Source: Craspedostauros australis
Lineage: Eukaryota; Bacillariophyta; Bacillariophyceae; Mastogloiales; Achnanthaceae
NCBI GenBank assembly: GCA_026770025.1
Contig: JAMXDE010000053.1
Span: forward strand, 310,001 to 374,000
Reading direction: 5' to 3'
Length of the DNA: 64,000 bases
The translations under genes were made by a program, and so were the position numbers. A model generated the notes under the pieces. The model was not told where the DNA came from and made no database searches. It was given only the letters and a program-made list of their open reading frames with translations. Positions 11,886-57,980 of this stretch are shown here, in pieces. The number at the start of each line of letters is the position of its first letter. The stretch's first letter is position 1.

Positions 11886-11985
11886 TTCCTTGTGACCCCA
11901 TTCAGGGTTATCTTGTCATCACTTGCGGATTGCTAAGATAAGCATCAAGTTCATCCTATTATGTTGTGGAGAGTATAGAATATGT
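11886..11985 (+). repeat. Dispersed repeat W, copy 1
   Basis: Starts with GTGACCCCATTCAGGG and ends with CATCCTATTATGTTGTGGAG. A diverged inverted copy lies at about 32872-32962, with the same two end motifs. The GACCCC(A/G)TTCAG end also occurs at 28374-28397 and, inverted, at 26766-26787. Confidence 0.6.
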
Positions 11986-12030
11986 TTATACCATAGGATG
12001 AGTCACTGTGCTCCATTGTATTATGAGCCA

Positions 12031-12178
12031 ACTTAGTGAGTCGACCTGCACTTTGTTACGGGACTCAAGAACATTTATTCAGTAGATCCAAACCAAGCAT
12101 ATAATCGTATTCTCCCACCTCTTCTTATAAATAATTAACCATTACATTTTTGAGATAGATCCTATTTTAAGTTTTATG
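12031..12178 (+). repeat. Inverted repeat Y, left arm
   Basis: Runs from ACTTAGTGAGTCGACC to TTTTAAGTTTTATG and includes a shared block around TTATAAATAATTAACC. Its inverted partner is at 17972-18119. Just outside, 12005-12024 contains a sequence whose reverse complement (AATGGAGCACAGTGACT) recurs at about 28804-28820. Confidence 0.75.
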
Positions 12179-12362
12179 CATATTCAAAGGCTTTCTGAAG
12201 TCGTATGGGTCGATCCCTGTGAAATTCCTAGTTGTTTTGCAGAAAGTTCGATCATGTTCTCATGCATTTATCGTATGGTATCCAATCACGGAATAGACGC
12301 CGGGATTGTCGTTCGTTTGGTACGCGTTAAATACACGTTAGCATCTGCGACATGATCTCACA

Positions 12363-12462
12363 TTTTGCTCGTCACAAAACACATCACACAAAACACATCA
12401 CACAAAACACATCACACAAAACACAAAACACAAAACACATCACACATCACACATCACACATC
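12363..12462 (+). repeat. CA-rich minisatellite
   Basis: Tandem AAACACATCACAC and AAAACACA-type units lie about 260 bp upstream of the DDE-protein start codon. No function is evident. Confidence 0.7.
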
Positions 12463-12724
12463 ATCGGCATCTGTTCACAAATTCAGGCATCATCGCCACA
12501 CTTTCGCTCCATTTCGCAACTTTCTTCGCCAATGTCATGTGTACTCTCTGTTGTGTTCCATGCTTGTGCTCGCCCTAGTAGTGTAGTAGTAGTAATAGTT
12601 GCTGTGGCTGTCAATGAATGGTGGCCTTTCATCCCATGCTCTCCTCTCCTCACTTCGTCTCAAACCTGTGCAGATCATCACATCCGACCAAATAACAACT
12701 ACACTCTCCACCAACAATTCCACC

Positions 12725-15700
12725 ATGTTTCCCTCTGCTGCTGCCAAGGCCCTCTCCAAGGATGGCAACCCCTCCCCCAGTAAGAAACCGCGTTCTCCTT
12801 ACCCTGTATCTCCTCCCTTCGATTCGAAGGGGTTCCTGCTGCCAACTGCGGAGCAACTGTTGCCTGACAAGCCGTCCGCTGCGTTGAGGAAGCCGAGCAC
12901 CATCACGCGAGTGATCGATGTGAAGCCGATGCATGCAGCGGATGGCAACCTCGTCCCGAACAGTACGCATGCGCACGCTCGCGAGCTGCATGTGTACGTT
13001 CACATCCTCGACAATAACGGAAGCGTCTTCGACGACTCCAATGTCAGGGTGCGTTCGGAGGGACGAGGTGTTGGCGATGGTACGTTGGTGAGCGTTATCG
13101 TGAACGCGCCACCCCCGCCTGCTGCAGCTGATGTTGCACCACCTGCCGAGCCTGCCCCACCGGCGAGGCTCCCTCGTCGCTGCAATGCTGTTGTTGCTGG
13201 TGTCTACGCAGACACCTCCAATGACAGCGACACCACCTACGACGACAACGACAGGGGTGAACGAACGCGTGCCAGCAGGAACAGGAGAGGAGGTCAGTTC
13301 GGGTTTGATCCGGAAGAGGCGGGAAACTGGAGGCGCGATGCCATTGTTCGTGTCATGGCAGTGCTTGGATCTAACCTAGATCCTGAACTGTTGTACCACA
13401 TGCCCAAAACAGGATTCGTTCTTGACAGCAACGGTGATAGGACAACATGGTGGAACTTGACACGCGTGTGGGTCACTGTGGCTACTGCGCTCTGGGGTGT
13501 CTTGCTCCCTCAGGAGGAGTTGCCAACTCGTCAGATTAAACAGGTGGTGGAGTTTGTCCGCGCTCGCGTGGACCTGCCGCCGCCTGCACTCGGTTCAAAT
13601 CTGTACACCCTGTGTGTGAGGGGGGAAAAGACAATTGCTAACGTGGCGAAAGCCGTTCTCGCTGCATCTACTTCATGCAACAACGTCACTGCAATCCTGT
13701 CTCGTCATGTGGAAATCATGCCGGAGGAACAACGTATTCGTGTCGCACCAGCACGCGCCACTAACACTAGGAGTCAACTAACAACGTTGCGACGCGCCTT
13801 CGACATATTCAGCTGTGGCGGAATCATTCCGCCCAAGGTTCTACAGTATCGTGTGCGTGCTTGCAACCTGTCTGGTGTGACGTCGTTTCTCATGACCACC
13901 ACTACGTACAAGGCAGGGTTGAGTCACACGGTACAGTTTGGAGGTGTCAAATTTGAAAATGTCCCCGTGTTCGATCGCGGAAGCACGACCATCGAACAAC
14001 TATTCGGCATGTACTCATCCACGACCAACAACCCAGTGGGAATGCCCGCTTTCACCCTCATCACCAACCTACTCACACGCAAAAGCAAGATCAAGACGGG
14101 CCTCTCTTCCTTCGAAAGCTACTTCTGGATGGCGACGGAGAAACTCAAACAGGCGATTTCGCGCCTAGTAGACCTACTGAAGGCTAAGTATGAAACAGAC
14201 GGGGAGGAACAAAACGATGCCAATGACGAGAGCGACAACCACAACGACGAGCCAGATGACGTCATCGCTCCACATGTGCGCACAGCCGATTCCCTCTTGC
14301 ATGCACTCGAACTGCTTGTTGTGTTCCTCAAATGGGAATTCACCGCCTCCCACATGCAGCTTCAGTGTGACGATCCCATGCATTCGGCTGCGTTCGCACT
14401 CACCACCAACAAGGAGAAGAAGAAGGCAACAACCACATCAACCAATCAACGCCAACCACGCACCAACAAGCACAAGCGCAAGAAGACCACCTCTGTCACC
14501 AACGACACTCCAAACGTCACAAATGACAATTCTCCCACCACTACAAATGACCAACCCTGTAAAGTATGCAACCGTTGTGGATCAGCAATGCGATTTGTGA
14601 ATGATCGTTTTGTTCCTTTTGTCACAATGCTTAAGGACAACGAACTCGCAGAACACAAGGACGAATTACAATCCATGCTTGCGGCGGCGCCGGGATTCGC
14701 CAACGAAATTGTTAACTACATGGCTCACAAAGTGCGTGCAAAAGTTCAATTCCGACAAATCGCCTTTTATCAATCCGAACTCAATGATAAGCCTGAAAGA
14801 GCCTATGTGGTACTTGACCATAAGCAAAAAATTCTACCGACAGGCCAAGGCGAAGCCCAACAAGAATATTGGGGGAAGAAGGGAATGTCACTGCTTGGGG
14901 CGATGGTCATCACGTGTCGCAATGACATTTTTACTTATCGGTTCATCGACATTGTGGTCGATGGAAGACCGACACAAGACACTCTTCAAGTTGGTGGACT
15001 GCTGGAGATCGTGCAAAAAAAGGTCAAAGACATTCACCCATCCGTGACTGAAATCATCTTACAGAGCGATAATGCGTGTTGTTTTGCCAGTCACGAGCAC
15101 ATCGCGCTCATCACGTCCAAACTCAACAAGAACCTTGTGACACGAAACGCGGCCAAAATCATCATGTGGATCTACACGGAGGCCCAAACCGGTAAGAGCA
15201 TGCTGGACACCCACTTCGCGTACATCACACGTGTACTGCGAAAATACGTGCAAAGTGGCAAGGACATCAAGACCCCGTTCCAACTCTTCCTCGCGCTCCA
15301 AGCCGGCAGCATCGCGGGGACAACCACGGTACTTGCCAACGCGTCGTCCCTCCAAGGCAACATCACGACGCTTCCTGGCGCACCAAAAAGACGATTCCGC
15401 GCGAATGGGCAACAGGTACGTCAAACTCACGAGGTGAAGTATGATGATGACCAGGCGCGGTTGGTGGCTGCATCTGGTATCACGGAAGACGTCGTGGTCA
15501 AGAGCGCTGAATGGGAAGGGTGGACCATCAACGAGTTGGGTGTCGTCCCTGCCGATTCGCACACGTCCGACAAGCTGCCGATCACGTCCGAATCGTCCAG
15601 GAAAACGGACAAGACGCGCAAAATGGGGCGCACAGCAACAGAGAGCAAGGCGTTCGCGATTGGCAAAGCCCTCCAAGACGGACAACAACATCTACCATCC

Positions 15701-16273
15701 GATCACACCACAGCACTACAAGACCAGACCGCGGACACAGAACATCCACCACTTGCAGTGCCCGGCTGGGCAAGCAAAACAACACGGACCAACGCCAAAC
15801 TACCAGACTACATCGCGGACAAGTTGAAGGACATCTGTGAAGCGTCCGCGAAGGACCCAAAAAACAGGCCATCGGAGCACGAAGCACACGAGAAACTGAT
15901 GAACAACGCAAGAACCAAAACTGACTGGTACGTGCAACTGCACGCAAATCCCATGCGTGTCAAATCGTCGCTGTTTGCGGCGTACAGTGCCAAACAACGC
16001 AAAGAAAAGAAGCAGGCTGCCCTCATCAAGACGGAAACCACCACAACACTGACCACCACCACCACCAACACAACAAGCAAAGCAACAGTAACAGCATCTG
16101 CAATCGTGGCCATCAATAATGTGCCAGATGGAACAGAGGAGGAACGAATCGAAGAGGAGTTGCAGAGAGAGGAAGAGGAATTGGAGAATCAGAGGTGGTG
16201 TGATGCTCACACAGTGAAGGCGAATGCAGAAAGTGAGGCTGTGTTGGATGATGATGGCACGAAAATTTTGTGA
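12725..16273 (+). CDS. DDE transposase-like protein, unassigned family
   Basis: Of the possible starts I prefer the ATG at 12725 (context CCACCATGT), giving 1182 residues without an intron. The first ~200 residues are Pro/Ala-rich and acidic. A central region near residues 560-590 is Lys/Arg-rich and could be a nuclear localisation or DNA-binding patch. A small cysteine cluster CKVCNRCG lies near residue 614. The likely catalytic core follows: D698 in VVLDHKQK, D782 in LQSDNACCF, and E819 in IYTEAQTGKS. The last two are 36 residues apart, as in many DD(35-37)E transposases, and D828 in SMLDTHFAY is a second acidic candidate. The C-terminus is Thr-rich and then Glu-rich. The surrounding inverted repeats support a transposase role. 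I could not assign a known superfamily. Confidence 0.6.
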   Translation: MFPSAAAKALSKDGNPSPSKKPRSPYPVSPPFDSKGFLLPTAEQLLPDKPSAALRKPSTITRVIDVKPMHAADGNLVPNSTHAHARELHVYVHILDNNGSVFDDSNVRVRSEGRGVGDGTLVSVIVNAPPPPAAADVAPPAEPAPPARLPRRCNAVVAGVYADTSNDSDTTYDDNDRGERTRASRNRRGGQFGFDPEEAGNWRRDAIVRVMAVLGSNLDPELLYHMPKTGFVLDSNGDRTTWWNLTRVWVTVATALWGVLLPQEELPTRQIKQVVEFVRARVDLPPPALGSNLYTLCVRGEKTIANVAKAVLAASTSCNNVTAILSRHVEIMPEEQRIRVAPARATNTRSQLTTLRRAFDIFSCGGIIPPKVLQYRVRACNLSGVTSFLMTTTTYKAGLSHTVQFGGVKFENVPVFDRGSTTIEQLFGMYSSTTNNPVGMPAFTLITNLLTRKSKIKTGLSSFESYFWMATEKLKQAISRLVDLLKAKYETDGEEQNDANDESDNHNDEPDDVIAPHVRTADSLLHALELLVVFLKWEFTASHMQLQCDDPMHSAAFALTTNKEKKKATTTSTNQRQPRTNKHKRKKTTSVTNDTPNVTNDNSPTTTNDQPCKVCNRCGSAMRFVNDRFVPFVTMLKDNELAEHKDELQSMLAAAPGFANEIVNYMAHKVRAKVQFRQIAFYQSELNDKPERAYVVLDHKQKILPTGQGEAQQEYWGKKGMSLLGAMVITCRNDIFTYRFIDIVVDGRPTQDTLQVGGLLEIVQKKVKDIHPSVTEIILQSDNACCFASHEHIALITSKLNKNLVTRNAAKIIMWIYTEAQTGKSMLDTHFAYITRVLRKYVQSGKDIKTPFQLFLALQAGSIAGTTTVLANASSLQGNITTLPGAPKRRFRANGQQVRQTHEVKYDDDQARLVAASGITEDVVVKSAEWEGWTINELGVVPADSHTSDKLPITSESSRKTDKTRKMGRTATESKAFAIGKALQDGQQHLPSDHTTALQDQTADTEHPPLAVPGWASKTTRTNAKLPDYIADKLKDICEASAKDPKNRPSEHEAHEKLMNNARTKTDWYVQLHANPMRVKSSLFAAYSAKQRKEKKQAALIKTETTTTLTTTTTNTTSKATVTASAIVAINNVPDGTEEERIEEELQREEEELENQRWCDAHTVKANAESEAVLDDDGTKIL

Positions 16274-17250
16274 GGGGTGTGCATCGCTGCGACAACACGA
16301 GTTGTGGAGTTTTGCGGGTGGCAGACCATGCTACTACAACGAGTCTAGAGGCCATCCAAAAAACACATCCAAATATCGGCTTATCATGCTATATCTCAAC
16401 AACACATCGCTTAAAATTAAATGTAAACATTGCATTCAGACGGCTGGCTATCTGTTAATCAGAATATCGAAGTTAAATGAATATAGAACATATTATGGAA
16501 GTCATGTTGGTTTGCTGTGTGTTGTGTGGTGGATTCGAGAAAAAATTGTTGATGCCACAATGTTGCCCTCCAATGAGCACACATGATCATCATCATCATC
16601 CTTGTATTTCAAAAAAATGTGCATACCATTCGCTCTGCATACCTCCCAGCTATCCGCTCCATGAAGCATGGCCACAGATATTGGCTCTGCATGCAGCAAT
16701 GCATCCACACACTGAAACAGAGCATGTTCGAAAAATCATTTTCGATGTGGATGCAGTTCAGATACGGATCCGTATCTCGTCCATACGATCCTTTCACCCC
16801 CTCCAAGCGCTCCTCGTGCATTACCACACTCCATGGCGACACGCGGATGCATCCATACTGGGCTGGGAGTGCATGGCCGACGTGATGCACCTCCATATGA
16901 TGATGTGGTGGTGCATTTATTGCTCCCACCAAACATGACCATTCCGCAGATATGGTTAGCTGCAGCGTCTTCCAGACAACTTGAGAAGAGCATGCTTCAC
17001 GACGTGCATCTTCAATTGATGCCGCACGCATCTTGTATGGGTGGCTTGACGATTGAGGGGCGTCGTCTCATCGCCCCTCACCGCCAAAGCCACGCGACCG
17101 GTGCTGCGCGAGCCCCAACCAAAACTCCTCAAAACCACCTTTGCCTCTGCGCGGACACCTTCCCGGTGCTCCGCGGCCCTCAAACTTCGAGGGTGCCTTC
17201 ATATTGGCCTTCTCGAGGCATCCTGCGCATCCATAGGCGCTGATATGGTC
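16268..17250 (-). repeat. Long dispersed repeat Z, copy 2
   Basis: Inverted partner of about 61-1048. Its inner end (16268-16345) reaches the stop codon of the DDE protein, so the 3' flank of that gene belongs to the repeat. On the minus strand it keeps frames with KFEGRGAPGRCP and SYGRDTDP that match copy 1. Confidence 0.65.
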
Positions 17251-17971
17251 TGTGTGTGTCACACATTGGCCAAAACCAACCAGCCGATTTGGGGCCAAAT
17301 TGTGATCGTATTTTGGGGGCCTACGACGGCCCCAAATCAACCCCTCTCCCCACCTCTGTTCGTCCACCCATCAAACGTTGCGTGGAGATGACGGCGATGT
17401 GCTTGGATCTTGAATTGGCCGCCTGGTTGTTGCGGCGCCAAGCATACCGTTCGACGGCCATTGTGGTGTTTTTTTGGTGTTGCTCCACTTCCATGTCGGT
17501 GTGTCGAGTTTGCCACTCTCAACCGGCCTCACATGTTGGGGGATGTGGAGATTTACCTCCAATTGTACCGAATGTCCAAAAAGACCACTACACAAAACAC
17601 TCGAGGAGTACCAACCCTTCTCAACCACTTCGCCACGACGAAGCAGACCTGATGATTTTCCGCATCGTGATATGATTGGTGTTTCATGACGAAGTATCCA
17701 ATTTCGTGACGTCGATGACGGATTGGACAAGCACATTGTGCAATTAACGTAAACACGAATTCGCCGCTTCCCCCAACATTCTACAACTAGTGCTATCGTG
17801 GATGGACTGTTGGATGGTCTCATCCGAACACCTGAAAAAGAGACTAAACAATTCAAAATCGGAACAAAGTTGCAGAAACAAAGAACAGCAAAGGGTTAAA
17901 TTGGATCGATGTAGTCGGTAGAAGACGGCCGAGTCCCTAAAGCAGTCTAAAAATGCGCACATTGTCGGGTC
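17251..17971. other. No gene seen; recurrent 13-bp motif
   Basis: The open frames have no recognisable domain. The 13-mer ACTAGTGCTATCG lies at 17786-17798; the same 13-mer is at 1025-1037 and, inverted, at 32308-32320. Confidence 0.4.
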
Positions 17972-18119
17972 CATAAAACTTAAAATAGGATCTATCTCAA
18001 AAATGTAATGGTTAATTATTTATAAGGAGAGGTAGGAGAATACGAATATGTACGTTGTTTGGATATCTGAGACAAAAGTTCTGGAGTCCCGTAACAAAGT
18101 GCAGGTCGACTCACTAAGT
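17972..18119 (-). repeat. Inverted repeat Y, right arm
   Basis: Inverted partner of 12031-12178. Its outer end abuts the outer arm of the next inverted-repeat element at about 18120. Confidence 0.75.
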
Positions 18120-18171
18120 GGGGTCTTATATTATGCTGTGGAGTATTCGCAAGTGTTGCTGTTGCCGTGAA
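18120..18171 (-). repeat. Outer tip of inverted-repeat element T1, left arm
   Basis: On the minus strand this reads CAACACTTGCGAATACTCC, matching the outer end of the right arm at about 28750-28780. It is cut off from the rest of the left arm (26456-26788) by the LINE and Copia insertions. CTGTTGCCGTGAA at about 18159-18171 recurs, with one difference, at about 26458-26470 and is the LINE target-site duplication. Confidence 0.6.
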
Positions 18172-18422
18172 TAATAATAACTCAAGGATCACATTAGAAA
18201 TGTGCCATAAGGCTTTACCCTCGCCGCTGCAAGCCCCGTAGGGCCGTGCTTTGAGCGAGCTGTCGTGTGTCGTCTGCTGTGAAAGCCCCAACCAAGCCGC
18301 CAACGCCCGCCTCTCGGCATGCATCGACTGCGATCGTCGCCGCGCTCTCACCGCCGCGTGAACGGCGATCATAGAGTTCACCCACTGTTGCATTTGAACC
18401 TCGGTGCCGTGTTTGATATGTC

Positions 18423-19199
18423 TGTTGGAAATCCGGGGTTATAGTAGTAGACTAATCTGTTATCAGTCTGTACCGTTTTAGAACTGTGAGCACAACATGC
18501 TCATCTCCTTTCGATTCCAATTCACAACAAGCATGATCTGCAGTAGCCACCCGAGATTACACCCTTCAGCTTGGCTCCTTTCGTCTGCATCTTCATCTTG
18601 CTTTCATCGTGGTTCATCGCTTGCTTGGCTGAGGATTGGAGAGCACCTACATTCGTCAAGTTCATACTCGTAGACCTGTAGGTACCTCTCCTTCGGTCTC
18701 TTGTCACCTCACTGGTCCCACTTCATTTCAGTTCCTCCCTCCTGTCATCTCGATGGTTGCCTTTGGATGCTTGGAACTTATTGTCATCTGGATCGTGGTC
18801 TTGGGTGAATAGGGATCGCCTCTGTTTCGCTTTCTCACATTAGGTTCTCAGGGACGCGTCGACTTGTTCAGATATATTGGTTGTCGCGCTCATTCGATTC
18901 ACTCAGGGCTGGTGTGTTGCCATCGTCATAGATCTCTCGGTTCCCGACCGTTATCGGGACATGGCCGAGTAGGCCACTGGATGAGGGTGCTTGGATGTCG
19001 CATAAGACAGGTAAGGCCATTGGGCTGTCCGAGTGCAACTGGTCGATTGCTAGGTTGCGGTTTGTCTGGGAGATGCTATTGGGGGTTGCGGCAATCGTGG
19101 GTATCTTTGCACTTAATACCATTCCGGTTCCAGTCAGTCCTCATGGGAGCTGCGGCAGAATACGGTATCTTTGCAAAGTCGTACCCCCGATTCCTGACA
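18423..19199 (-). repeat. 3' LTR of Copia 1
   Basis: 777 bp, TG...CA ends. No difference seen from the LTR at 25029-25805. Confidence 0.95.
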
Positions 19200-19295
19200 C
19201 CCTTCCATTGTCGCACCACCATACTCACTCACACACACAAATCGTCTCTCGTCTTACTCCCTTGTCTCGCTCTTGCACTCATCTCTTCTGTCCCA

Positions 19296-22200
19296 TTAAT
19301 CCATGGTCGATCTCAATTGAATGATGCTCCCTTTGTGTCTGTCGTAGATCTCCTTCTTTGTGTTCTTGGTGAAGCCGTCTGCGATGTTGTCCTCTGAGCG
19401 CACAAATTGAATTCGTGCCTCTCCGTTGTCTATCAGCTCCCGAGTGAAATGATGTCGTATATCGATGTGTCTCGTTCGCGCTGATGTCGACGGATTGGAG
19501 GCAATGAAGATAGCCCCCACATTGTCCACGTACACATCCGCTGGTTTGGTCATCGTCAACCCGATGTCCTCCATTAGCTGCGTGAGGAAGCGAATCTCTT
19601 TTCCTGCTTCTGACAGCGCGACGTATTCCGCCTCTGTCGAGCTGAGAGTTACACTTCGTTGTGCCTTCGATCTCCATACGATGGGCACCCCTTGCAGTAG
19701 GACGAGATGTCCCCCGACACTGATCCGGTTATCCTTGTCTCCCGCAAACTCGCTGTCTGCGTAGATCTCGATCTTCCATGCGTCGTTCTCCAGCGGGGTT
19801 GGTTGCATTCGTAGTCCGTAGTCCCTTGTGTCCGATACGAACTTCATTACTCGTAGCATCTCCTTGTATGCTGCAGCTGATGGTCCGTCCAGCACCTTGG
19901 TAAGTTCGCGCACCGCATTCGCAATGTCTGGTCGCGAGTGCTTCACCAAGTATAGCAGCATACCTACTCCGCTTCGGTATCTGCTGTGTCGGTCACTGTC
20001 CACTTTGGGTAGGTCGTTGTTTCTCTGGATACCCTGTCCTGGTGTTCCTGGAGTTCCGTATCGTTGTAGAGTCAGCACGTCATCCTTGAATGTATCGATG
20101 ATGTTCTTGATGATGTGTGGCTGGTTCACCCAACAGTTCGACTGATCGTTGTTGAAGATGATCTTGCAGCTGAGGTAGTCTTCGAGGTCGTTCTCCACCT
20201 TGATTCCGAATTGCTCAGCTTTGATGTCGATGGTTAGTTGCTTCAACTCCTCCTTTTCTCCGATGCATAGGCAGTCGTCGACGTAGGTGCCTATCAGCAG
20301 TAGTCTCCCTTCCTGATTCCGAATCAGAAGGCATGGATCCACTTTGCTCTGTCGAAATCCCAGCTTGAGTAGAATATCGACCAGCTTTTTGTTCCATTGT
20401 CGCGCGCTCTGCACTAGTCCGTAGATGGTCTTCTTGAGCAGCAAGCATTCGTCGGCCTCATGCCTCATCCCCTTTGGGCATTGCATGTAGATCTCTTCGT
20501 CAAGTTCTCCATGTAAGAATGCTGTCTCGAAGTCGATGATCATACTATCCATGTGCAGCAGCATCTTCATAGTGAGCATGATGCGGTAGGTTGCATCATG
20601 AATCACTGGTGCGTGGTGTGCTGAGAAGTCCACTCCTGCGATCTGTGAGTAGCCGCAGGCGACGAGTCTGGCCCGGAAGACTCCGTTCCTCTTCTCCTTG
20701 AATACCCACTTGGTCTTCACGCATCGCCGATCCCTCGGCATTCGGTTCCTCTTGATCTTCTCCCATACTCCTCTTCTGGTCATATCGTTGAACTCCTTAT
20801 TGATGGCCTCTCTCCACTTCGTTCTCTTCTCGGGATCTGCATGGTCCCAGCATTCTTCGAAGGTGGTAGGGTCCAGCATCATAGCTACGCTTGCTTGCTC
20901 GGGTCTGACTCGATCATTTGTCACTTGGCTCGCAGCGATGAAGTCATCCAATCTCATCTTTCCGTGAGTGGTGTCTATCATCATCCCTGCGACGTCTCTG
21001 TTGAACATCGACCCGTCTGTATGGAAGCTCGGCCCCTCTGTCGCCGCTGTTTCGGCTTCTGTCTCTTGGGCAGTCTCTTGCTTCTCCTCGTCAGATTCCG
21101 ATGCTTCGCTGGATCCGTAGTCTCTGTCCTCCTTAGGGACGGGCGAATTGTTATACCCTGCGAGATCTCTGACCATTCTTGGTACGTACGCAACAGGTGT
21201 TGCGACTGGAGTCGAGGGCGGTTCTTGCTCTACCGTTCTTTCCTCGCTCCTTCCATCCTCGTCCCTTCCGGATTCATCGCCGACGTCTTCGTCTGGTTCC
21301 TGATCCTCCTGGACGGGTAGCAGATCGTCCTGCTCTACCGCAGCATCTTCTGAATCTCCTTGTTCTCTAGTTCTGCTGCGCTGGTCATCATCATCGGTCT
21401 CTATGTCACTCATACTGTCCGATTGACGAAGCCAAGTCACTCCTCTCTCTGGAGACGAGTCTCTTGATGAGGAGTCGTCGTCTGCGTTCATTACTCTGGA
21501 TCTGCTGGCATCCTTAATACCTTTGAACTCTCCATACGACTTATTCAACCATGTTATGTCTCGAGTCATCAGGATTCTTGAGGTAGCAAGGTTCATCATG
21601 CGGTACACTCCTTTCGCGTGCGACTCTCCGTATCCCACGAACATGGCAGGTTTGGAGCGGTCGTCTAGCTTGGCCTTGATAGTCTGTCCACCGATGTGTA
21701 CCATCCCCATCTCGCCGAACACACGCAGGTCATTTGCATACTTCGGGACTTTTCCGTTTAACAGTATACACGCTGGCTCCCTTGACTTCGTGCCAATGAT
21801 GTTCTCCAGCTGCGTTGCCGTGTGAGCAGCCTCTGCCCACAGCTTCCCTCGCGTTGTTTTTGGTAGATGGGTTTGGTTCAGCATGGCGCGTACTTTGCCG
21901 TAGAGTGTCGCGAATTTCCTTTCGACGCGACCGTTCTGTTGGGGAGTCGATGCCGCAGTGTACTCGAAGGTTGGGGCGAATCCCTTGTTAAGTAAGAGTT
22001 TCTCTGTAGAACGATTCTCTCCTGCGTTGTCACATCTGACATTTTGAACCGTTACTCGCTGATTCGCCTGGAGCCATTGGAACAACAAAAGCATCTTCGA
22101 CCCCACGTCGCTCTTCTCTGTGATGAAGTAACTCCAGCAGTAGTCACTGTAATCGTCGATCACAAGAAGCCAGTATTTGCCCCTTCCCAGGCTGTGTGTC

Positions 22201-25010
22201 TGAACGCTTGATGTGTCCATGAACAATCGATCCCCGACTCCTTTCGCTCGTTGTTGAGTCGCTTTCGACATCGGTCTCTGTCGCGATTTCCCAATCGCGC
22301 AGTCAACACACACTTTCAGTTTTCCTGTCACGTTCCAACCGTACCTCCCTGCTGTTCGAGAGATGGTGTACGCGTCAACGTGGCCTAACATTTTATGAAT
22401 TGTGTTGATGTCGATTGGTGCGTCGGTCGACACGCCAACATGAGCTTGGTCGTTGGCCTTGGCGTTGCTCACCATGTTCACTCCACATACGAAACCGCTC
22501 TGGGTTGCCATGATGCGGTCGAAGCTGATGCGCACGCTGCCTTTCTTCAGGCTGATCACAATGCCGCGGTTGCTGATGTCGAAACCATTCTCGAGAGCTT
22601 TGTTAATGCTCAGTAGGTTCACCCACAGTTTCGGCACGTACTTCACTGACTTGAGCACAACGATGGATGTCTTTCCGTTCTTCTGCATGACGGTCATGCG
22701 CTTGTCCCCAACCTTGGTTGCCTTGAGGAAGCGTCCGCTTCCGATCTTCACGTCCTGATCGGAGACGCGAACGTTGGTCATTCCTTCGTCGCTGTTGGTG
22801 AGGTGGCATGATGCGCCCGAATCCCCCAACCAGGTGTTGGTCTCATAGCTGTCCGGTGCGATGGAAGAGCGCCTTGCGCTCACATGGTCCGTGTTGCCGA
22901 CCACCATGGCTACCTCGTGTTGGTCTGTGCGTTCAGAGTAGATTGGTAGCACCCAGTGCTCCGGCTTTGGGTCTCTGACTCCGCTGTCACTTTGGTGATG
23001 GGTCCAACGGATGGAGTTCGCGGCATGGAGGGTCATGCACGAAATCAGATCGCTGGGGAAGGGTTGGAAGTGACGAGACTCCAAGCTGTTGTTGATGTTG
23101 CACGGGTTGCGACACACACCCAATGTGGTGATCATCCCGATCTCGTGTAGCTTGAAGTACACCGTGCGCGGCTCGATCTGTAGCTCGCGGTCTTGAGTGT
23201 GGGTGGCTACAGCATCGTAGCACAATAGGGCGAGTTCGTTTCGCACCTCATTGGCTCGGAGCACGTTGCTCAACGATGCTCGCACAGCATTGCGGAGGGA
23301 ACCAGCTCTTTCGAGTCTGGTGCGTCGCTCCGCGCGCTCTTCATCGTTGGTCGGCACATTGCCACTTGGCTCGTTGTGGAGCTGGATGAAGAAAGGAACT
23401 TGGGGGCATTCCACGCACCATGCGTAGAGTGGTCCTCGCTTGAGGCACAGAGGGCACCAGGCCGTGTTGGTGGTGAGCCCTGTCGAGTTCCCGATCATGC
23501 GGTCCACGCGAGAGAGTTCTGGAGCGAAGTTGAACACTGGACGGCGAGCCGTTCCTTCTTGATTGGCACCGCCCATGTCGTCGTCCACGTCTTCGGTGTC
23601 GGTGGCCCCTTCGTTGGTGAGGCTTGCGTCGTAGTAGGATTCTTGTCCTAGGTTGGAGTTGCTCATCTTGTTGTTGACGTTGTGTGGTCTCAAAGAAAGA
23701 ATGGGAGATGTGTCAGTCTGTTCGACGATGGCTGCAAAGGCGACGTCCTCCATTACCTTGGAGTCAGCTTGGTAGTTGCTGTCGTTGTCGCGTGTTTTCG
23801 CCTCGCCTGTGTTCACAGACAAGTTGGTCACATTTTCCAATTCGTTCGTGTTTCCCGAGGTGGGCACACAAATTAATTCGTCTGTCACCACAAGAGCTAC
23901 ATCGTTATTTCCTTCCATTCCATCAGTCGCCACGTTGGCCGAGTCTGCCTCCTTCATGGCTGCCTTCAGCTTGAAGCACTGTAGGATCTTGTGTCCCTTC
24001 TTACCGCAGTACTTACACTCCCCATTGAACTTGGGCTTGCTGTTGTTGACTCCTTGGCCACTCTTCTTGTTCTTGCCGTTGTCTTTCTTGGGGGCGGAGC
24101 GGCAGTCTGCCTTCTTGTGGCCGTAGGCGCCACAGTTGCGGCAGTGACCTTTGAAGCCTCCTACTGCAGCGAATGCAGTCTCTTCCCTGTTGCTGTTGTT
24201 CTCACGTCTGTTGCCGCCGAGCTTGAGGTGTCGGCCGTCGTAGGTGGCACTGACAGCCTCGCGGATGTCTTCGAGGGTCATGGTGTCTTCCATACCATCG
24301 AACTTGAGCTCCAAGAGCTTGACGTCCGTCTCGTATTCCCTTCCGAGGGCGTTGAGTACGAGCATGTGGTACTGTTGCATATCCATCTTGATGCCAGTAC
24401 TACCGAGGCGATTACGCAGCACTTCCATCTCAGTTAGGAACGTGTCTGGGTGCTCACCTTTCTTCAATCGCATCCCGTTGAGTTGAGCCAACAACTTTGC
24501 CTTCATAGGCGCAGTACGTTGCTCATAGATGCGTTCAAGGGCCTTCCACGCCTTGCGTGGGTCTCCACTTTCAGTGGGCCCGCCCTTGGTTCCCACCACA
24601 GCCATGAAGGCGACATTGCCTTCCGTAGTTTCATGGTTGATCGCCATGGCCAGTTCTTCAAACGCGCACTTAGCCAGCCCATTCTTGTATAACTCCTTCT
24701 CCTCAGCAGTCATCGAGGCTATCTTCTTCGCGATAGACTCACCCTCTTCGATCTTCACATCGGAGATGAGGGCGCTGGGGCCGAAGGGAGCTGGCTTCAC
24801 CTCCACCTTGTCTAGATCCATGAGATACAAGTCCTCAAGACCCCTGCCCGCGGCGCGAGCTAGGAACTTGATGCTCCAACCTGTCCAGCTGGAACGCTTG
24901 CCGTCGAAGATAACGACGCGGTCGTTCTTGCGGAGATAGGAGCTCATGGTGGTGTGGTGGTGGTGGTATTTGTTGCTGTGTTGGTGGGTGATGGAAACGT
25001 TGGATTTCAA
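19296..25010 (-). CDS. Copia 1 gag-pol polyprotein
   Basis: A single frame of 1904 codons; the more likely start is at 24947 (ACCACCATGAG). Domains in order are a Copia-type Gag, two CCHC zinc knuckles (about residues 288-302 and 331-345), an unusual spacer of about 380 residues, aspartic protease (WLGDSGASC, about 727), a pre-integrase zinc region, integrase, reverse transcriptase with YVDD (about 1575) and RNase H ending in the usual Copia region of LSSTEAEY. The spacer has its own C-x2-C...C-x2-C pattern (CPLCLKRGPLYAWCVEC) and an Arg-rich helix. The gene order protease-integrase-RT-RNase H is diagnostic of Copia. Products would assemble virus-like particles in the cytoplasm and integrate cDNA in the nucleus. 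Confidence 0.95.
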   Translation of the reverse strand: MKSNVSITHQHSNKYHHHHTTMSSYLRKNDRVVIFDGKRSSWTGWSIKFLARAAGRGLEDLYLMDLDKVEVKPAPFGPSALISDVKIEEGESIAKKIASMTAEEKELYKNGLAKCAFEELAMAINHETTEGNVAFMAVVGTKGGPTESGDPRKAWKALERIYEQRTAPMKAKLLAQLNGMRLKKGEHPDTFLTEMEVLRNRLGSTGIKMDMQQYHMLVLNALGREYETDVKLLELKFDGMEDTMTLEDIREAVSATYDGRHLKLGGNRRENNSNREETAFAAVGGFKGHCRNCGAYGHKKADCRSAPKKDNGKNKKSGQGVNNSKPKFNGECKYCGKKGHKILQCFKLKAAMKEADSANVATDGMEGNNDVALVVTDELICVPTSGNTNELENVTNLSVNTGEAKTRDNDSNYQADSKVMEDVAFAAIVEQTDTSPILSLRPHNVNNKMSNSNLGQESYYDASLTNEGATDTEDVDDDMGGANQEGTARRPVFNFAPELSRVDRMIGNSTGLTTNTAWCPLCLKRGPLYAWCVECPQVPFFIQLHNEPSGNVPTNDEERAERRTRLERAGSLRNAVRASLSNVLRANEVRNELALLCYDAVATHTQDRELQIEPRTVYFKLHEIGMITTLGVCRNPCNINNSLESRHFQPFPSDLISCMTLHAANSIRWTHHQSDSGVRDPKPEHWVLPIYSERTDQHEVAMVVGNTDHVSARRSSIAPDSYETNTWLGDSGASCHLTNSDEGMTNVRVSDQDVKIGSGRFLKATKVGDKRMTVMQKNGKTSIVVLKSVKYVPKLWVNLLSINKALENGFDISNRGIVISLKKGSVRISFDRIMATQSGFVCGVNMVSNAKANDQAHVGVSTDAPIDINTIHKMLGHVDAYTISRTAGRYGWNVTGKLKVCVDCAIGKSRQRPMSKATQQRAKGVGDRLFMDTSSVQTHSLGRGKYWLLVIDDYSDYCWSYFITEKSDVGSKMLLLFQWLQANQRVTVQNVRCDNAGENRSTEKLLLNKGFAPTFEYTAASTPQQNGRVERKFATLYGKVRAMLNQTHLPKTTRGKLWAEAAHTATQLENIIGTKSREPACILLNGKVPKYANDLRVFGEMGMVHIGGQTIKAKLDDRSKPAMFVGYGESHAKGVYRMMNLATSRILMTRDITWLNKSYGEFKGIKDASRSRVMNADDDSSSRDSSPERGVTWLRQSDSMSDIETDDDDQRSRTREQGDSEDAAVEQDDLLPVQEDQEPDEDVGDESGRDEDGRSEERTVEQEPPSTPVATPVAYVPRMVRDLAGYNNSPVPKEDRDYGSSEASESDEEKQETAQETEAETAATEGPSFHTDGSMFNRDVAGMMIDTTHGKMRLDDFIAASQVTNDRVRPEQASVAMMLDPTTFEECWDHADPEKRTKWREAINKEFNDMTRRGVWEKIKRNRMPRDRRCVKTKWVFKEKRNGVFRARLVACGYSQIAGVDFSAHHAPVIHDATYRIMLTMKMLLHMDSMIIDFETAFLHGELDEEIYMQCPKGMRHEADECLLLKKTIYGLVQSARQWNKKLVDILLKLGFRQSKVDPCLLIRNQEGRLLLIGTYVDDCLCIGEKEELKQLTIDIKAEQFGIKVENDLEDYLSCKIIFNNDQSNCWVNQPHIIKNIIDTFKDDVLTLQRYGTPGTPGQGIQRNNDLPKVDSDRHSRYRSGVGMLLYLVKHSRPDIANAVRELTKVLDGPSAAAYKEMLRVMKFVSDTRDYGLRMQPTPLENDAWKIEIYADSEFAGDKDNRISVGGHLVLLQGVPIVWRSKAQRSVTLSSTEAEYVALSEAGKEIRFLTQLMEDIGLTMTKPADVYVDNVGAIFIASNPSTSARTRHIDIRHHFTRELIDNGEARIQFVRSEDNIADGFTKNTKKEIYDRHKGSIIQLRSTMD

Positions 25011-25028
25011 TCGTAACGTTTCGAAACG

Positions 25029-25805
25029 TGTTGGAAATCCGGGGTTATAGTAGTAGACTAATCTGTTATCAGTCTGTACCGTTTTAGAACTGTGAGCACA
25101 ACATGCTCATCTCCTTTCGATTCCAATTCACAACAAGCATGATCTGCAGTAGCCACCCGAGATTACACCCTTCAGCTTGGCTCCTTTCGTCTGCATCTTC
25201 ATCTTGCTTTCATCGTGGTTCATCGCTTGCTTGGCTGAGGATTGGAGAGCACCTACATTCGTCAAGTTCATACTCGTAGACCTGTAGGTACCTCTCCTTC
25301 GGTCTCTTGTCACCTCACTGGTCCCACTTCATTTCAGTTCCTCCCTCCTGTCATCTCGATGGTTGCCTTTGGATGCTTGGAACTTATTGTCATCTGGATC
25401 GTGGTCTTGGGTGAATAGGGATCGCCTCTGTTTCGCTTTCTCACATTAGGTTCTCAGGGACGCGTCGACTTGTTCAGATATATTGGTTGTCGCGCTCATT
25501 CGATTCACTCAGGGCTGGTGTGTTGCCATCGTCATAGATCTCTCGGTTCCCGACCGTTATCGGGACATGGCCGAGTAGGCCACTGGATGAGGGTGCTTGG
25601 ATGTCGCATAAGACAGGTAAGGCCATTGGGCTGTCCGAGTGCAACTGGTCGATTGCTAGGTTGCGGTTTGTCTGGGAGATGCTATTGGGGGTTGCGGCAA
25701 TCGTGGGTATCTTTGCACTTAATACCATTCCGGTTCCAGTCAGTCCTCATGGGAGCTGCGGCAGAATACGGTATCTTTGCAAAGTCGTACCCCCGATTCC
25801 TGACA
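25029..25805 (-). repeat. 5' LTR of Copia 1
   Basis: 777 bp, TG...CA ends. It should carry the element's promoter. Confidence 0.95.
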
Positions 25806-40173: not shown

Positions 40174-42027
40174 CTACACCCCATGCTCCTGCTGCCAAGT
40201 CGAAAGGAAATCAGCGATCTCATTGTGACCAAGATCTGCAGCAAGACGAGCAGGTGTGCAATTGTGGCATAGCACATTGATGTCAGCATTGTCGAACTCG
40301 ACCAGATACTTGACAACATTCAAGTGACCACCGGCACATGAAATATGAAGTGGGGTGATGCCGCTGATGTTGTGTGGGCTGACATTGACGTTGGAAGAGT
40401 CCAGAAGATACTTCACAACATTCAAGTGACCGCTGGCACATGCAGCAAAAAGTGAGGTGACACCTTCATTGTCTTGTGCGTTGACATTGACGTTGGAAGA
40501 TTCCAGAAGATACTTCACAACATTCAAGTGACCGTTGCCACATGCAGCAAAAAGTGAGGTGACACCTTCATTGTCTTGTGCGTTGACATCAGCGTTGGAA
40601 GATTCCAGAAGATACTTCACAACATTCAAGTGACCGCTGGCACATGCAGCAAAAAGTGAGGTGACACCTTCATTGTCTTGTGCGTTGACATTGACGTTGG
40701 AAGAGTCCAGAAGATACTTCACAACATTCAAGTGACCGCTGACACATGCAGCAAAAAGTGAGGTGACACCTTCATTGTCTTGTGCGTTGACATCAGCGTT
40801 GGAAGATTCCAGAAGATACTTCACAACATTCAATTGACCGCTGGCACATGCAAAATGAAGTGGGGTGAAGCCGTTACTGGCTTGGATGTTGACCTCAATA
40901 TTGCCCAATTCCACCAAGCACTTCACAACTTCCAAATGGCCGCATAAGCATGCCCCATGTAATGGAGTGAGGCCTTGGTGGATTTGTGTATTGGCATCAG
41001 CGTTGGAAGATTCCAACAAATATTTGACAACGTTCGAATGGCCGCACACACACGCAATAAAAAGCGGAGTGGCACCACGAGCGTCTTGGACGTTGACATC
41101 AGCATTGCATGAGTCCACCAAGTACTTCACAACCTCCAAAGGGTCACCTCCAGAGCACTCAACATTCAATGAAGCGCATTGATTCCACCTCTGAAGATTG
41201 ACAGTGGGACATAACTCGACCAGGCGCTTCATTGTATCCGAAGCACCACGTCGGCATGCATAATGCAGCAGCGTGCAGCCAGCACTATCCACGATAGTCA
41301 CATCGACGTTGAGCGATTGCACCAGATACTTCATGCAGTCCAGATGACCTTCCAAGCATGCCCATTGAAGTGGAGTGAGGCCGCGAGTGTCTCGAACATC
41401 GATGTCTGCATCACATGAGTCCACGAGATACTTCGCACAATCCAAATGACCGTGATGGAAAGTGCACTGGAATGCAGTTGCACCACGGAAACCAGGGATG
41501 GATATGTCAGCGTTGCATGCTTCCACCAGGTACTTCACACAATCCAGGTGACCATTCCAGCATGCTGACACAAGCGGGGTGCTCCCATTGTTGGCTTGGA
41601 TGTTGATATAGGTCGAGCTTGATTTCACCAGATACTTCACACAAGCCAAGCGGCCTTTGCTGCATGCTCGATGCAGGAGAGTCTTGCCATTGTCATCCTT
41701 GATGCTACCGTGATCGTCTCTTGGGTTGTTGTTCTTCCACTCCTTCAACATTGTCAGATTCCCGTCCGTGGCAGCGCGAAGGAGTTTGTCTTTCGTGATG
41801 TTGGACATGTCGGCGTCATGATTGTTGGCTGTGACGTGTGGTGTGTTGGTATTGTGTGAGTGGTGTCCGAAAGCTGAAGCAATCCGCGACAGTACATTGC
41901 GGATGCATGAAGAATAGAAACACATCGCGTGGACGTGACGAGATGATGTGAGTTGTCGCTGATGTGATATGAGAGGAATGGAGTATGTATGCGATAGAAG
42001 TCCAATTCGCACAGAGGATTCATTCAT
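40174..42027 (-). CDS. Ankyrin-repeat protein
   Basis: An intact 617-residue frame of about 15 ankyrin repeats of 34 residues, from roughly residue 75 to the C-terminus. Typical units read GxTPLHxAC.xGHLxVVKYLxESxNADVNxQDN. Ankyrin arrays bind partner proteins; the partner is unknown. A later ATG (about 41808, MSNITKDKLLRAATDG) may be the true start, because the first ~70 residues are not repeat-like. Four central repeats are nearly identical. One repeat (RWNQCASLNVECSGGD, near 41190) is degenerate, with a longer loop. There is no signal peptide, membrane segment or second domain. Confidence 0.8.
   Translation of the reverse strand: MNESSVRIGLLSHTYSIPLISHQRQLTSSRHVHAMCFYSSCIRNVLSRIASAFGHHSHNTNTPHVTANNHDADMSNITKDKLLRAATDGNLTMLKEWKNNNPRDDHGSIKDDNGKTLLHRACSKGRLACVKYLVKSSSTYINIQANNGSTPLVSACWNGHLDCVKYLVEACNADISIPGFRGATAFQCTFHHGHLDCAKYLVDSCDADIDVRDTRGLTPLQWACLEGHLDCMKYLVQSLNVDVTIVDSAGCTLLHYACRRGASDTMKRLVELCPTVNLQRWNQCASLNVECSGGDPLEVVKYLVDSCNADVNVQDARGATPLFIACVCGHSNVVKYLLESSNADANTQIHQGLTPLHGACLCGHLEVVKCLVELGNIEVNIQASNGFTPLHFACASGQLNVVKYLLESSNADVNAQDNEGVTSLFAACVSGHLNVVKYLLDSSNVNVNAQDNEGVTSLFAACASGHLNVVKYLLESSNADVNAQDNEGVTSLFAACGNGHLNVVKYLLESSNVNVNAQDNEGVTSLFAACASGHLNVVKYLLDSSNVNVSPHNISGITPLHISCAGGHLNVVKYLVEFDNADINVLCHNCTPARLAADLGHNEIADFLSTWQQEHGV
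40379..40850 (-). repeat. Near-identical 102-bp tandem repeats in the ankyrin gene
   Basis: About four to five units of 102 bp, each one ankyrin repeat, differ at only a few positions, for example GACATTGACG against GACATCAGCG. The outer repeats of the same gene are much more diverged. Confidence 0.85.
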
Positions 42028-42127: not shown

Positions 42128-42234
42128 ACCTGTTTCGTTTCGTTTCGTTTCGTTTCGTTTTCGTCGTGTTCTGCCGTGTTTCGTTTCGTCACATCTCGCC
42201 TCGCCTCACCTTGCAATGAAAATGGGCGGAGTTG
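42128..42234 (+). repeat. TTTCG microsatellite
   Basis: GTTTCGTTTCGTTTCGTTTC at about 42137-42160 and looser copies to 42200. It lies just outside the second Copia element. Confidence 0.75.
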
Positions 42235-42897
42235 TGTTGAAACAGGTCTCAATCCTGTTGCTCATGTAGACCGGGTGGGGCTACAATTGGTTCACTAAGT
42301 TAGTTGTTCTGTTATCCCGGGTTTGTAGGTTGGTGATTCCTCTTTCTCTGCGATTTATGAGCTCGACTTGTCTGTCAAAAGTCAACTCATGTCAATCTCC
42401 AGTTGCCCTGCAAACTCGTGTAGTTCTGACTCCTATTGAGTCAGATCATTTCCTAATTCCTAACGATCCACCGCGATGTGAATCCTCGACCTGCGCCAGT
42501 TTCCCGCAGTTCGTCGTGTTGTTGTCTTATTTGGTCTTGGTTGTGTCAGACAGAGATTCAGGAACTCGATTGCGTCAGTCTCTAATCCTGACGTCTTACC
42601 TAAGTGGTTCCTCTCATCCATATATATCTGGTCTTGCTCCTCTGCTGACGTTCATGCTCTGCTCCTCACGTTCCCGCTGACGTTAGATTCCTCTCGATCG
42701 GTAGATTATTTGTTTCTGAAGATTCCGAGATTCTTTCGTCATATTCGAGGATTCTGCTGTAAATTTCCGTTTTCGGGTTTGGAACATTTGATCGTGAGAA
42801 GGAGTTCTGGACAAACAAATATGTGTGAGCAGTCATTTGCGCAACTGTGACCCCTACCGGGTCATACACGAATCTGAATATTCGTCATGTTCCAACA
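42235..42897 (-). repeat. 3' LTR of Copia 2
   Basis: 663 bp; starts TGTTGGAACATGACG on the minus strand. No difference seen from the partner LTR. Confidence 0.95.
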
Positions 42898-42949
42898 CTC
42901 TCCCTGTTTGTGCAGAACCTCTCCTTTCATCTCAAAATGACGTCGATTG

Positions 42950-45900
42950 TCACTTCAACCCTCCTTGTCTGATGGATGGCACCAGTCTCTCATGAATGCT
43001 CTCCTTCACATTCTTGGTCATGGGATCCGCGAAGTTCATCTCGGATGGTGTGAACTTCATGGTCATCTCTCCTCCCTGTACCATCTCCTTGATGAAGTGA
43101 TATGCCACATCGATGTGCTTGGTGCGTAGTCCAACCTGCTGGTTCTTGGTCAAGAAGATTGCTCCAGTGTTGTCGCCATGTAGAGTGATCTGCGTGTTGG
43201 TTCCGGTCATCTCATCCAGCAGCATCTTGGCGAACTTGCATTCGGTTGCGCAGTTTGCCATCGACACGTACTCCGCCTCTGTGCTCGAGAGTGTCACCGA
43301 TCGCTGTGTCTTGGACTGCCAGCTCACAAGACACCCTCCGACCGTCACGATGTTGCCTGAGACGCTGCGACGATGATCCTTGTTCGTTGCGTAATCCGAA
43401 TCGCACCATGCTTCGATCTCCAGCCTGCGCGGCTTCCTGAGCTTGATGGCATAGCTGTCCTCCTTCGCAATCTCAGCCTTGATGTATCCGATCAGTCTCG
43501 CCATCGCCTTCCAGTGTTCCTTGGTTGGATGCTCCAGATGTGATGCAAGTTCTCTGACAGCGTTGGCACACTCTGGTCCCACTTTCTTCATCATCCAGAG
43601 GAGCTTGCCAACAATGGATCGGTATCCAGCGCGATTGTCCACTTCATCATCTTCGGCTGCCTTCACCAGGGTAGTTGATGGGTATCCTGGGGTCTCAAAG
43701 AGTCTGATGTTCGATCCGTAGTGCTGTTCGAATTCCTTGATCATCTGCTCCACGAAGTCGTCCATGCTGACCACCAGGCACTTGCCATCTGCATCAGTCA
43801 TCCTCTTGTACCATACTCCCAGATGTTTGGTGAGCTCTCCAAGGTCCGTGATGTTGAACTTGCGTGCGATCTCTTCCTTGATCCATTCGACTGTGACTGG
43901 GTCTCCTCCGATAGCAGCATCGTCGACATACACTATCACCAGTGCTGTGACTTGCCCGCTCGACTTGTACACGAACAAGCATGGATCTGCCAGACTCTTG
44001 GTGAATCCAATGTCCACCAGTGCTGCTGTGAAAGTCTTCATCCATGCTCTGGGTGCTTGAACCGTTCCATACACCGCCTTCAGCAGTTTTGCAACATGCT
44101 TGTGACGATATTCTGGATCTGCCCTTCCGTCAAAGTCTCCGTCCACGAATCCTTCTGGGATCTCGATGTACACCTCTTCTTCAATCTCTGCGTTCAGGAA
44201 TGCTGCCTCCACATCCAGGGCTTCGATCACCCATCCAGTGTTGGCCAGGCACACCGCCAGCATTGTTCGAATTGTGGTATCACTTGCGACCGGGGAGAAT
44301 GACTCTGTGAAGTCCACTCCAGGGATCTGTTCGTATCCCTTCACCACCAGCCTCGCTTTGTACCGTGTTGACCCATCCTGTTCGGACTTCTTCACGAATA
44401 TCCAGCGAGACTTGAGTGCAGTGCGTCCTCGTCCCATGCTGCCTCGATCAATGACTTGGAGACAGTCGCGCTTCTGGAAGTTGTGAACCTCCTTTTCAGC
44501 TGCTCCCTTCCACTTGTCACCATCTGGCCTGCTCAGAGCGTCCTGCAGCGTCTTCGGTAGCCCTGGATCAGAAGTAAGAGAAGCGTTGAAAACCATCAAC
44601 ACTCTCCCGGATCTGGTGTTTGGCCTTCCATCATTCCGGCCTTGCACCTCGTAGGATCTCCAGGTCTGTAGTTTCGCTCGCTCTCTCTCCATCTTGGATG
44701 ACCCTCTCCCAGCTTGCGGAACTGCCAGACGAGTTGGATGTCTCTCACGTTGGTTCGCAGGTGTCACATGCCGTTCATTCACCTGATGCACATCCACCAT
44801 CTCGAAGTCATCCATGCCCTCATTTCCATCCGAATCAGAGACAAGCCCAGGATCCACAACGATTCCGTTGATATCGTCCCGGACATGGTCGGTTGGGTCC
44901 GCCATCACACCGCTCTCATCGTCCGAAATGACATGAGGAAGTTCATCGATGCTGACCATCTTTGGAATCTTGGTGGTTGCCGCTCTCTCCCCAGTGGACG
45001 GAGTCATCATCAGTGGAACATCCGCATCGACCACAGCCTTCTCATCTGGGACTGCGGCTGCGGTTGCTGCTGGTGTTGGATTGGATGCAGGCTCAGGTTG
45101 TGCAATGATCTCCACACCATCCACGACCCCTGCTCCATGCCACTCCATCCAGTTCAGGTCTCTGGACATCACCACCTTGTTGGTATCGACCTTCAGCATC
45201 CGATAGGTATCGCCTGCATGGTTGTCAGCATAGCCCAGCATCACCGTTTTGAATGCTTTCGGTGTAAGCTTTGGCTTCTTGGCGCGATCCGTTACGTATC
45301 CGACGCGTCCCCATTCCATCAGATGCGGATAGAGCTTGGGATTCTGGCCGTAGAAGGTTTCATCTGGACTCTTGTCATTGCCTGTTGTGACCGTCAGGTT
45401 ATGGAGCCGGGTTGCCGTGTGGATTGCCTCCGCCCAAAGCCGTCCTTGTGCCTCATCAGTGAGATCAGCATCCAACATGAGCGCCAGTGCCGAATCTCGA
45501 ATCGTCACGAATCCTCTCTCGACAACACCATTCATCATTGGTGTGTTGGGGGCGGTGTACTCCAGTTGGATTCCATGCTCGTCACAGACCTTCTCCAGCT
45601 TCCCTTGGTTCTCACCAGCATTGTCACACCGAATGGCCTCCACCTTCAGGTCTGCACCTTTGAGTTTGGTGAGTAGAGTCTCCACCTGTCCTGCAAGCTG
45701 GCTCTTGTTCGTCAGGAAGTAACTCCACTTCTTCTTGGAAACCTCATCCACGATCAACAGCCAGTAGTTGCTTCCTTTGGCCGTCTTCTTGTATGGACCA
45801 GAGATGTCCAGGTATAGGCGTTGAGCGATGTGGGTAGCTTTCTCAAATGCCTTCTTCCTCACTCCCTTCGCCTTTGCTTTTGCCTTTGCACATGCCTCAC

Positions 45901-47398: not shown

Positions 47399-47469
47399 CT
47401 TGTCGTTGTTCTTCAGCCCTGATGGCCCAACGTCGTGTGTCTGAGTGTCTCAAGACACGTTTTAAAACG

Positions 47470-48132
47470 TGTTGAAACAGGTCTCAATCCTGTTGCTCAT
47501 GTAGACCGGGTGGGGCTACAATTGGTTCACTAAGTTAGTTGTTCTGTTATCCCGGGTTTGTAGGTTGGTGATTCCTCTTTCTCTGCGATTTATGAGCTCG
47601 ACTTGTCTGTCAAAAGTCAACTCATGTCAATCTCCAGTTGCCCTGCAAACTCGTGTAGTTCTGACTCCTATTGAGTCAGATCATTTCCTAATTCCTAACG
47701 ATCCACCGCGATGTGAATCCTCGACCTGCGCCAGTTTCCCGCAGTTCGTCGTGTTGTTGTCTTATTTGGTCTTGGTTGTGTCAGACAGAGATTCAGGAAC
47801 TCGATTGCGTCAGTCTCTAATCCTGACGTCTTACCTAAGTGGTTCCTCTCATCCATATATATCTGGTCTTGCTCCTCTGCTGACGTTCATGCTCTGCTCC
47901 TCACGTTCCCGCTGACGTTAGATTCCTCTCGATCGGTAGATTATTTGTTTCTGAAGATTCCGAGATTCTTTCGTCATATTCGAGGATTCTGCTGTAAATT
48001 TCCGTTTTCGGGTTTGGAACATTTGATCGTGAGAAGGAGTTCTGGACAAACAAATATGTGTGAGCAGTCATTTGCGCAACTGTGACCCCTACCGGGTCAT
48101 ACACGAATCTGAATATTCGTCATGTTCCAACA
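47470..48132 (-). repeat. 5' LTR of Copia 2
   Basis: 663 bp; partner of 42235-42897. Confidence 0.95.
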
Positions 48133-51651: not shown

Positions 51652-51733
51652 CGTTTATAAACGATAGATCAGGGCAAGCCCGCGGATCGGATCGTGCAAG
51701 GAAGACGAACATCATTCAAGAGCAGCAGGCTGA

Positions 51734-52965: not shown

Positions 52966-53040
<75 letters not shown>

Positions 53041-57960: not shown

Positions 57961-57980
57961 CCGAATGCACACAGGAAGGG

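Follow-up and report, generated by a model that had tools for sequence, protein, structure and literature searches.

Among the described eukaryotic DNA transposons, Sola elements combine a DDD transposase with 4-bp target site duplications, lengths of mostly 2–9 kb and inverted repeats of 11–1124 bp, as given in the available part of PMC10741241. According to the same part of that source, Tc1/mariner elements produce a 2-bp TA duplication and, in plants, carry inverted repeats about 30 bp long, and the inverted repeats of Ginger measure 40–270 bp. Kolobok and piggyBac insert specifically at TTAA, according to the available part of PMC9587614. The element compared here with these systems lies in a 64,000-nucleotide stretch of Craspedostauros australis contig JAMXDE010000053.1 (positions 310,001 to 374,000), referred to below as the window, in whose coordinates all features are given. 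It is a complete DNA transposon of 6101 bp (12025–18125, + strand) with one long gene (12725–16273, + strand), whose product of 1182 residues had been described in an earlier sequence-only reading as an intact DDE-type protein of no recognised transposase family.

That this gene encodes the transposase of a DNA transposon was strongly supported by inverted repeats, 4-bp duplications, empty sites and copy number. The DDE/D type, which had also been proposed in the sequence-only reading, is suggested by motifs and a weak structural model. Taken as a whole, the element is very probably an autonomous DNA transposon of 6.1 kb, with a DDE/D transposase whose putative core is RNase H-like and insertion at a 4-bp H-TA-N target.

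The ends of the element were determined from the comparison of copies, the inverted repeats and full-length related copies. By copy comparison, the element begins with GAGCC at 12025 and terminates with GGGTC at 18125. The inverted-repeat arms (12022–12178 and 17972–18128) extend over 157 nucleotides and are 88% complementary, in agreement with the inverted repeats previously noticed around the gene; these arms take in three bases of the target duplication, and the repeat proper is about 154 bp. On the basis of the arms and of other copies, the left terminal inverted repeat, starting with GAGCC, was placed at 12025–12178 (+ strand), and the right one, starting with GACCC on the − strand, at 17972–18125.

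The element is bordered by two copies of TTAT, at 12021–12024 on the left and 18126–18129 on the right, identified by copy comparison and by empty sites in which TTAT is present only once. Copies were sought in the 74.8-Mb assembly of 90 contigs (G000, with the window in contig C51). A perfect 4-bp duplication was found in 23 of the 25 copies (window copy and 24 others) searched at both ends; for the remaining two, L015 and L023, the right end was not located in the stretch examined. The duplicated sequences were TTAT (5 copies), ATAT (4), CTAT (4), ATAG (2), ATAC (2), ATAA (2), CTAG (2), TTAG (1) and TTAC (1). The consensus was therefore H-TA-N, with the central TA present in 23/23 duplications and G in none of them at the first base. 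TTAA did not occur among the 23 sites, and no base preference was evident in the ten positions flanking them on each side.

Empty sites were sought for nine insertions, namely the window element and eight others in a joint search, for which the 40 best matches were considered. When the flanks of the window element were rejoined through a single TTAT, they matched nine other genomic places near-completely, at 90–98% identity, among the matches listed; one of them extended over 198 nucleotides ungapped at 98%. Because the rejoined flanks match uninterrupted paralogous sites, the window element was inserted into another repeat, with an exact 4-bp duplication. For insertion L012, at least 16 uninterrupted sites were identical over 140 nucleotides and at least 12 further ones matched at 86–99%, and for L006 one site spanned the join at 94% among the matches listed. 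Empty paralogous sites were thus supported for three of the nine insertions (window, L012 and L006), and insertion with duplication of 4 bp is directly evident.

The flanks of the window element at 11925–12024 and 18130–18229 belong to this host repeat. Another copy of the repeat, in contig C4, carries a different insert of 612 bp (L061, G000 C4:3180621–3181232) with the ends CCCTTC...GAAGGG, located at the same TTAT or at most two bases from it. This insert is possibly a short TA-targeting element. It was also considered as a short derivative of the window element, which was rejected, as the ends differ and no notable similarity was found.

The two ends of the window element share the motif GTGAGTCGACC, which begins 11 bases inside each end (12036–12046, + strand, and 18104–18114, − strand). 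It occurs twice in the window, both times at the element ends, against 0.05 occurrences expected. An earlier count of 46/46 ends was partly circular, and since the first end-finding pattern contained most of GTGAGTCGACC, the test was repeated with anchors that exclude the motif. With these anchors, the motif was present in 30/30 left ends, including that of the window copy, and in 22/24 right ends of other copies, with no end located in the two remaining stretches. The inverted-repeat sequence outside the motif differs among subfamilies. The motif is a natural candidate for the binding site of the transposase.

The genome contains well over a hundred copies of the family. At least 39 matches were obtained with the full protein, at least 146 with the 261-residue core and at least 150 with an 81-residue piece; these counts represent the best-scoring candidates (39–40 for long queries, 146–150 for short ones), so that diverged families would be missed. 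Frames of at least 1150 residues hold 110 of the 146 listed core matches. A stop inside the matched stretch was found in only 2/146, and both of these are counted among the 110 long frames. Over the 5746 bp compared, copy L001 and the window element share 99.98% identity; transposition was therefore recent.

The ratio of nonsynonymous to synonymous substitution rates (dN/dS), calculated from 12 copies, was low. The lowest values were obtained for residues 421–560 (0.15), 641–925 (0.18) and 201–420 (0.21), followed by residues 926–1182 (0.32), 1–200 (0.37) and 561–640 (0.44). The picture is that of a recently mobile family, divided into several subfamilies, whose gene is maintained under selection, unlike a domesticated gene. 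Domestication of a transposase, which the sequence-only reading had allowed, would leave a host gene in single copy, likewise with a long intact frame under purifying selection. Against it stand the copy number, the duplications in 23 of the 25 examined copies and the near-identical recent copies, and domestication can be regarded as practically ruled out. For the window copy in particular, it is refuted by the target duplication and the empty sites.

The single open reading frame of the transposase gene contains a stop only at its end, which bears out its description as intact. The Lys/Arg-rich patch and the Cys cluster reported ahead of the core were both found. The former lies near residues 558–591, and the latter is a CxxCxxC arrangement of C612, C615 and C618 (14558–14578, + strand). 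Only part of this cluster is conserved, however: C615 and C618 were kept in 13/13 copies, but position 612 was C in 3 and R in 10. In the interior 3′ of the gene (16274–17971), a second conserved gene was sought in five frames of 12 copies and not found, as each frame was interrupted by a stop in 5–11 of the 12; this test ends about 200 bases short of the right repeat, and a spliced gene would escape it.

The catalytic core is predicted at residues 655–865 (14687–15319, + strand), which correspond to the cropped structural model described below, with low confidence and a strand and helix order that is partly RNase H-like. The acidic residues D698, D782 and E819, named in the sequence-only reading, are present at these positions. 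Among 42 distinct core sequences, the putative first catalytic acid D698 (14816–14818, + strand) was D in 42/42 and the putative second, D782 (15068–15070, + strand), was D in 40/42. The proposed third acid, E819 (15179–15181, + strand), was E in 42/42, and D828 (15206–15208, + strand) was equally invariant, being D in 42/42. Since both are invariant, the paralogs cannot distinguish between E819 and D828.

The 36 residues between D782 and E819, from which a DD36E arrangement had been suggested, were counted correctly but carry no evidential weight, because such pairs are no commoner than expected by chance. The protein contains 8 pairs of D and E separated by 35 to 37 residues, compared with a mean of 12.0 in 500 shuffled sequences.

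Structure prediction by AlphaFold was performed in two ways. The full protein with 13 paralogs yielded a mean predicted local distance difference test (pLDDT) score of 33, which was unusable, and residues 655–865 with 42 distinct paralogs yielded a mean of 47. As no distant relative was found, both alignments were shallow, with identities to the window protein of 75–96% in one and 87–100% in the other. The cropped model consists of a strand (693–703), a short helix (710–716), two strands (722–732 and 735–745), a helix (756–770), a strand (774–778) and three helices (790–805, 809–821 and 826–843). D698 is situated on the predicted strand 693–703, D782 four residues past the strand 774–778, E819 in the low-confidence helix 809–821, and D828 close to where the helix 826–843 begins.

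An RNase H-like core comprises five strands and three helices, with the third catalytic acid in the C-terminal core helix, as described in the available part of PMC3985635. The predicted order resembles this arrangement apart from a helix at the place of the fifth strand, a resemblance that is suggestive only. Because the third acid belongs in the C-terminal core helix (PMC3985635, available part) and D828 lies in helix 826–843, D828 is favoured over E819, whose role as the third acid is doubtful despite its invariance. The triad is most likely D698-D782-D828, in which 45 residues separate the second and third acids, as far as the cropped model can indicate.

In a comparison of the cropped model with known structures, 50 of 570 PDB matches were listed, none of them significant; by title, 16 of these 50 are RNase H-like proteins or complexes that contain one. 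They included Argonaute, HerA-NurA and NurA, RNase HI and Cas12. The grouping was our own, made in part from the available portion of PMC3985635, and the share of 16/50 has no baseline and is suggestive only.

Several results weigh against the interpretation as a DDE/D transposon with an RNase H-like core. In the model, the predicted helix 809–821 occupies the place of the fifth RNase H strand, and the extra short helix 710–716 lies between the first two predicted strands. The Foldseek search with the cropped model gave no match at E 0.001, the best values being 0.077 in PDB and 0.0041 in BFVD, and the other listed matches were spread over many unrelated folds. As both models are of low confidence and no fold match is significant, the RNase H fold and the triad remain putative. 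D782 is replaced by N in two of the 42 distinct cores (L026 and L075). These copies may be dead, or the replacement may count against a catalytic role of D782; if D782 is catalytic, L026 and L075 are expected to be inactive. For six of the nine insertions tried, no clear spanning empty site was seen among the matches listed. Finally, the whole protein and its profiles gave nothing above the cut-off in Pfam, NCBIfam and PHROGs and nothing significant among PDB sequences.

The transposition of such an element can be outlined as follows. The transposase would bind GTGAGTCGACC 11 bp inside each end and cut at the G of GAGCC and GACCC by means of an RNase H-like core, in which D698, D782 and, most likely, D828 would be the catalytic acids. 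By analogy, the element would be excised from its old site, in a cut-and-paste manner. The ends would then be joined to the target DNA at positions staggered by 4 bp around a central TA, and repair would yield the NTAN duplication.

With regard to relatives, the best sub-threshold Pfam match reached E 0.0085 and belonged to a glycosyltransferase family. The absence of a recognised family, as proposed in the sequence-only reading, holds within Pfam, NCBIfam, PHROGs and PDB sequences, all of whose matches were sub-threshold; the lack of a Pfam match does not prove novelty, as Pfam may not cover Sola or the rarer eukaryotic superfamilies. No relatives were found in phages, in IMG/VR viral contigs or in GTDB prokaryote genome contigs, where the contig scans rely on exact short peptide (7–8 residues) or DNA patterns and would miss distant relatives. 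The frames that contain two IMG/VR matches have 79 and 26 residues, and both matches resemble chance hits. The plasmid search returned two Pseudanabaena records, which matched a 70-residue stretch outside the core with E 0.4 and were also taken as chance.

When the described systems are compared with this locus, its gross anatomy appears closest to Sola. It would represent a diverged branch of Sola or else a transposase lineage that the libraries searched do not contain. The element is best classed as a DDE/D inverted-repeat transposon, possibly Sola. Membership in this superfamily, as Sola1, Sola2, Sola3 or a diverged branch, is a tentative placement, held at slightly less than an even chance. 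The 4-bp duplication is common to both, the length of 6101 bp and the repeats of about 154 bp fall inside the Sola ranges given in the available part of PMC10741241, and D828 may represent the third acid of a DDD triad. However, these ranges are wide, and the likeness is one of gross anatomy. As for the triad of Sola (PMC10741241, available part), the position of D828 would suit it, but E819 shows the same invariance and the model is a weak one.

Other named superfamilies, such as Academ, CMC/Chapaev, Ginger or Kolobok, are considered rather unlikely placements. In favour of them, Academ, Chapaev and Ginger produce duplications of 3–4 bp. KolobokP was also reported with 3–5-bp duplications in the available part of PMC9587614. 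The absence of TTAA from the 23 sites speaks against piggyBac and classical Kolobok, which share the 4-bp duplication with the element, and the protein has no Pfam match; this absence of TTAA does not speak against KolobokP, as that source describes it. Ginger and retroelement integrases resemble the element in the DDE type, putative for the element, and, for Ginger, in their long inverted repeats, but the rve integrase domain expected for Ginger was detected neither in the full protein nor in the 42 core sequences. In the same window, rve was weakly detected in two of the three Copia-type frames scanned. The lack of a second conserved gene in the five frames of 12 copies is a further argument against these superfamilies. 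Tc1/mariner has the central TA and the DDE/D type, the latter putative here, in common with the element, but differs from it in the size of the duplication (2 bp versus 4 bp) and of the inverted repeats (about 30 bp in plants versus about 154 bp).

An unnamed eukaryotic DDE/D superfamily would be defined by a single-gene transposase of about 1180 residues, repeats of about 154 bp, ends with GTGAGTCGACC, an H-TA-N duplication and recent mobility. In its favour, nothing significant was obtained from Pfam, NCBIfam, PHROGs, PDB sequences, phages, plasmids, IMG/VR and GTDB contigs, and no transposon with an NTAN target site duplication was found among the papers searched. The libraries searched, however, exclude Repbase and Dfam as well as eukaryotic genomes and proteomes, the exact-match contig scans are blind to distant relatives, and Pfam may lack models for the rarer eukaryotic superfamilies. 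With these points taken together, a superfamily of this kind seems improbable, though worth keeping in view.

The element is complete and has moved recently, its ends and target are defined and many of its transposase copies are open, so that it offers a practical starting point for the biochemistry of a little-studied transposase lineage. If it belongs to Sola, it would provide material for settling the triad and the structure, as no solved relative was found by sequence. If it does not, it may add a superfamily.

DNA transposons of this type were recently active in the genome, beside Copia-type elements with identical direct repeats. One Copia-type retrotransposon (18423–25328) adjoins the element and contains a frame of 1904 residues (19296–25010, − strand) that is Copia-like by eye; its 300-nucleotide direct repeats at 18423 and 25029 are 100% identical, as expected of a recent insertion. 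Two more Copia elements were found at 42234–47768 and 50855–58779, with frames of 1482 and 1870 residues (RVT_2, Pol_BBD and zinc knuckle) and flanking direct repeats that are 98–100% identical. A frame of 1164 residues at 58869–62363 ends in a Copia reverse transcriptase domain, and a frame of 617 residues at 40174–42027 consists mostly of ankyrin repeats.

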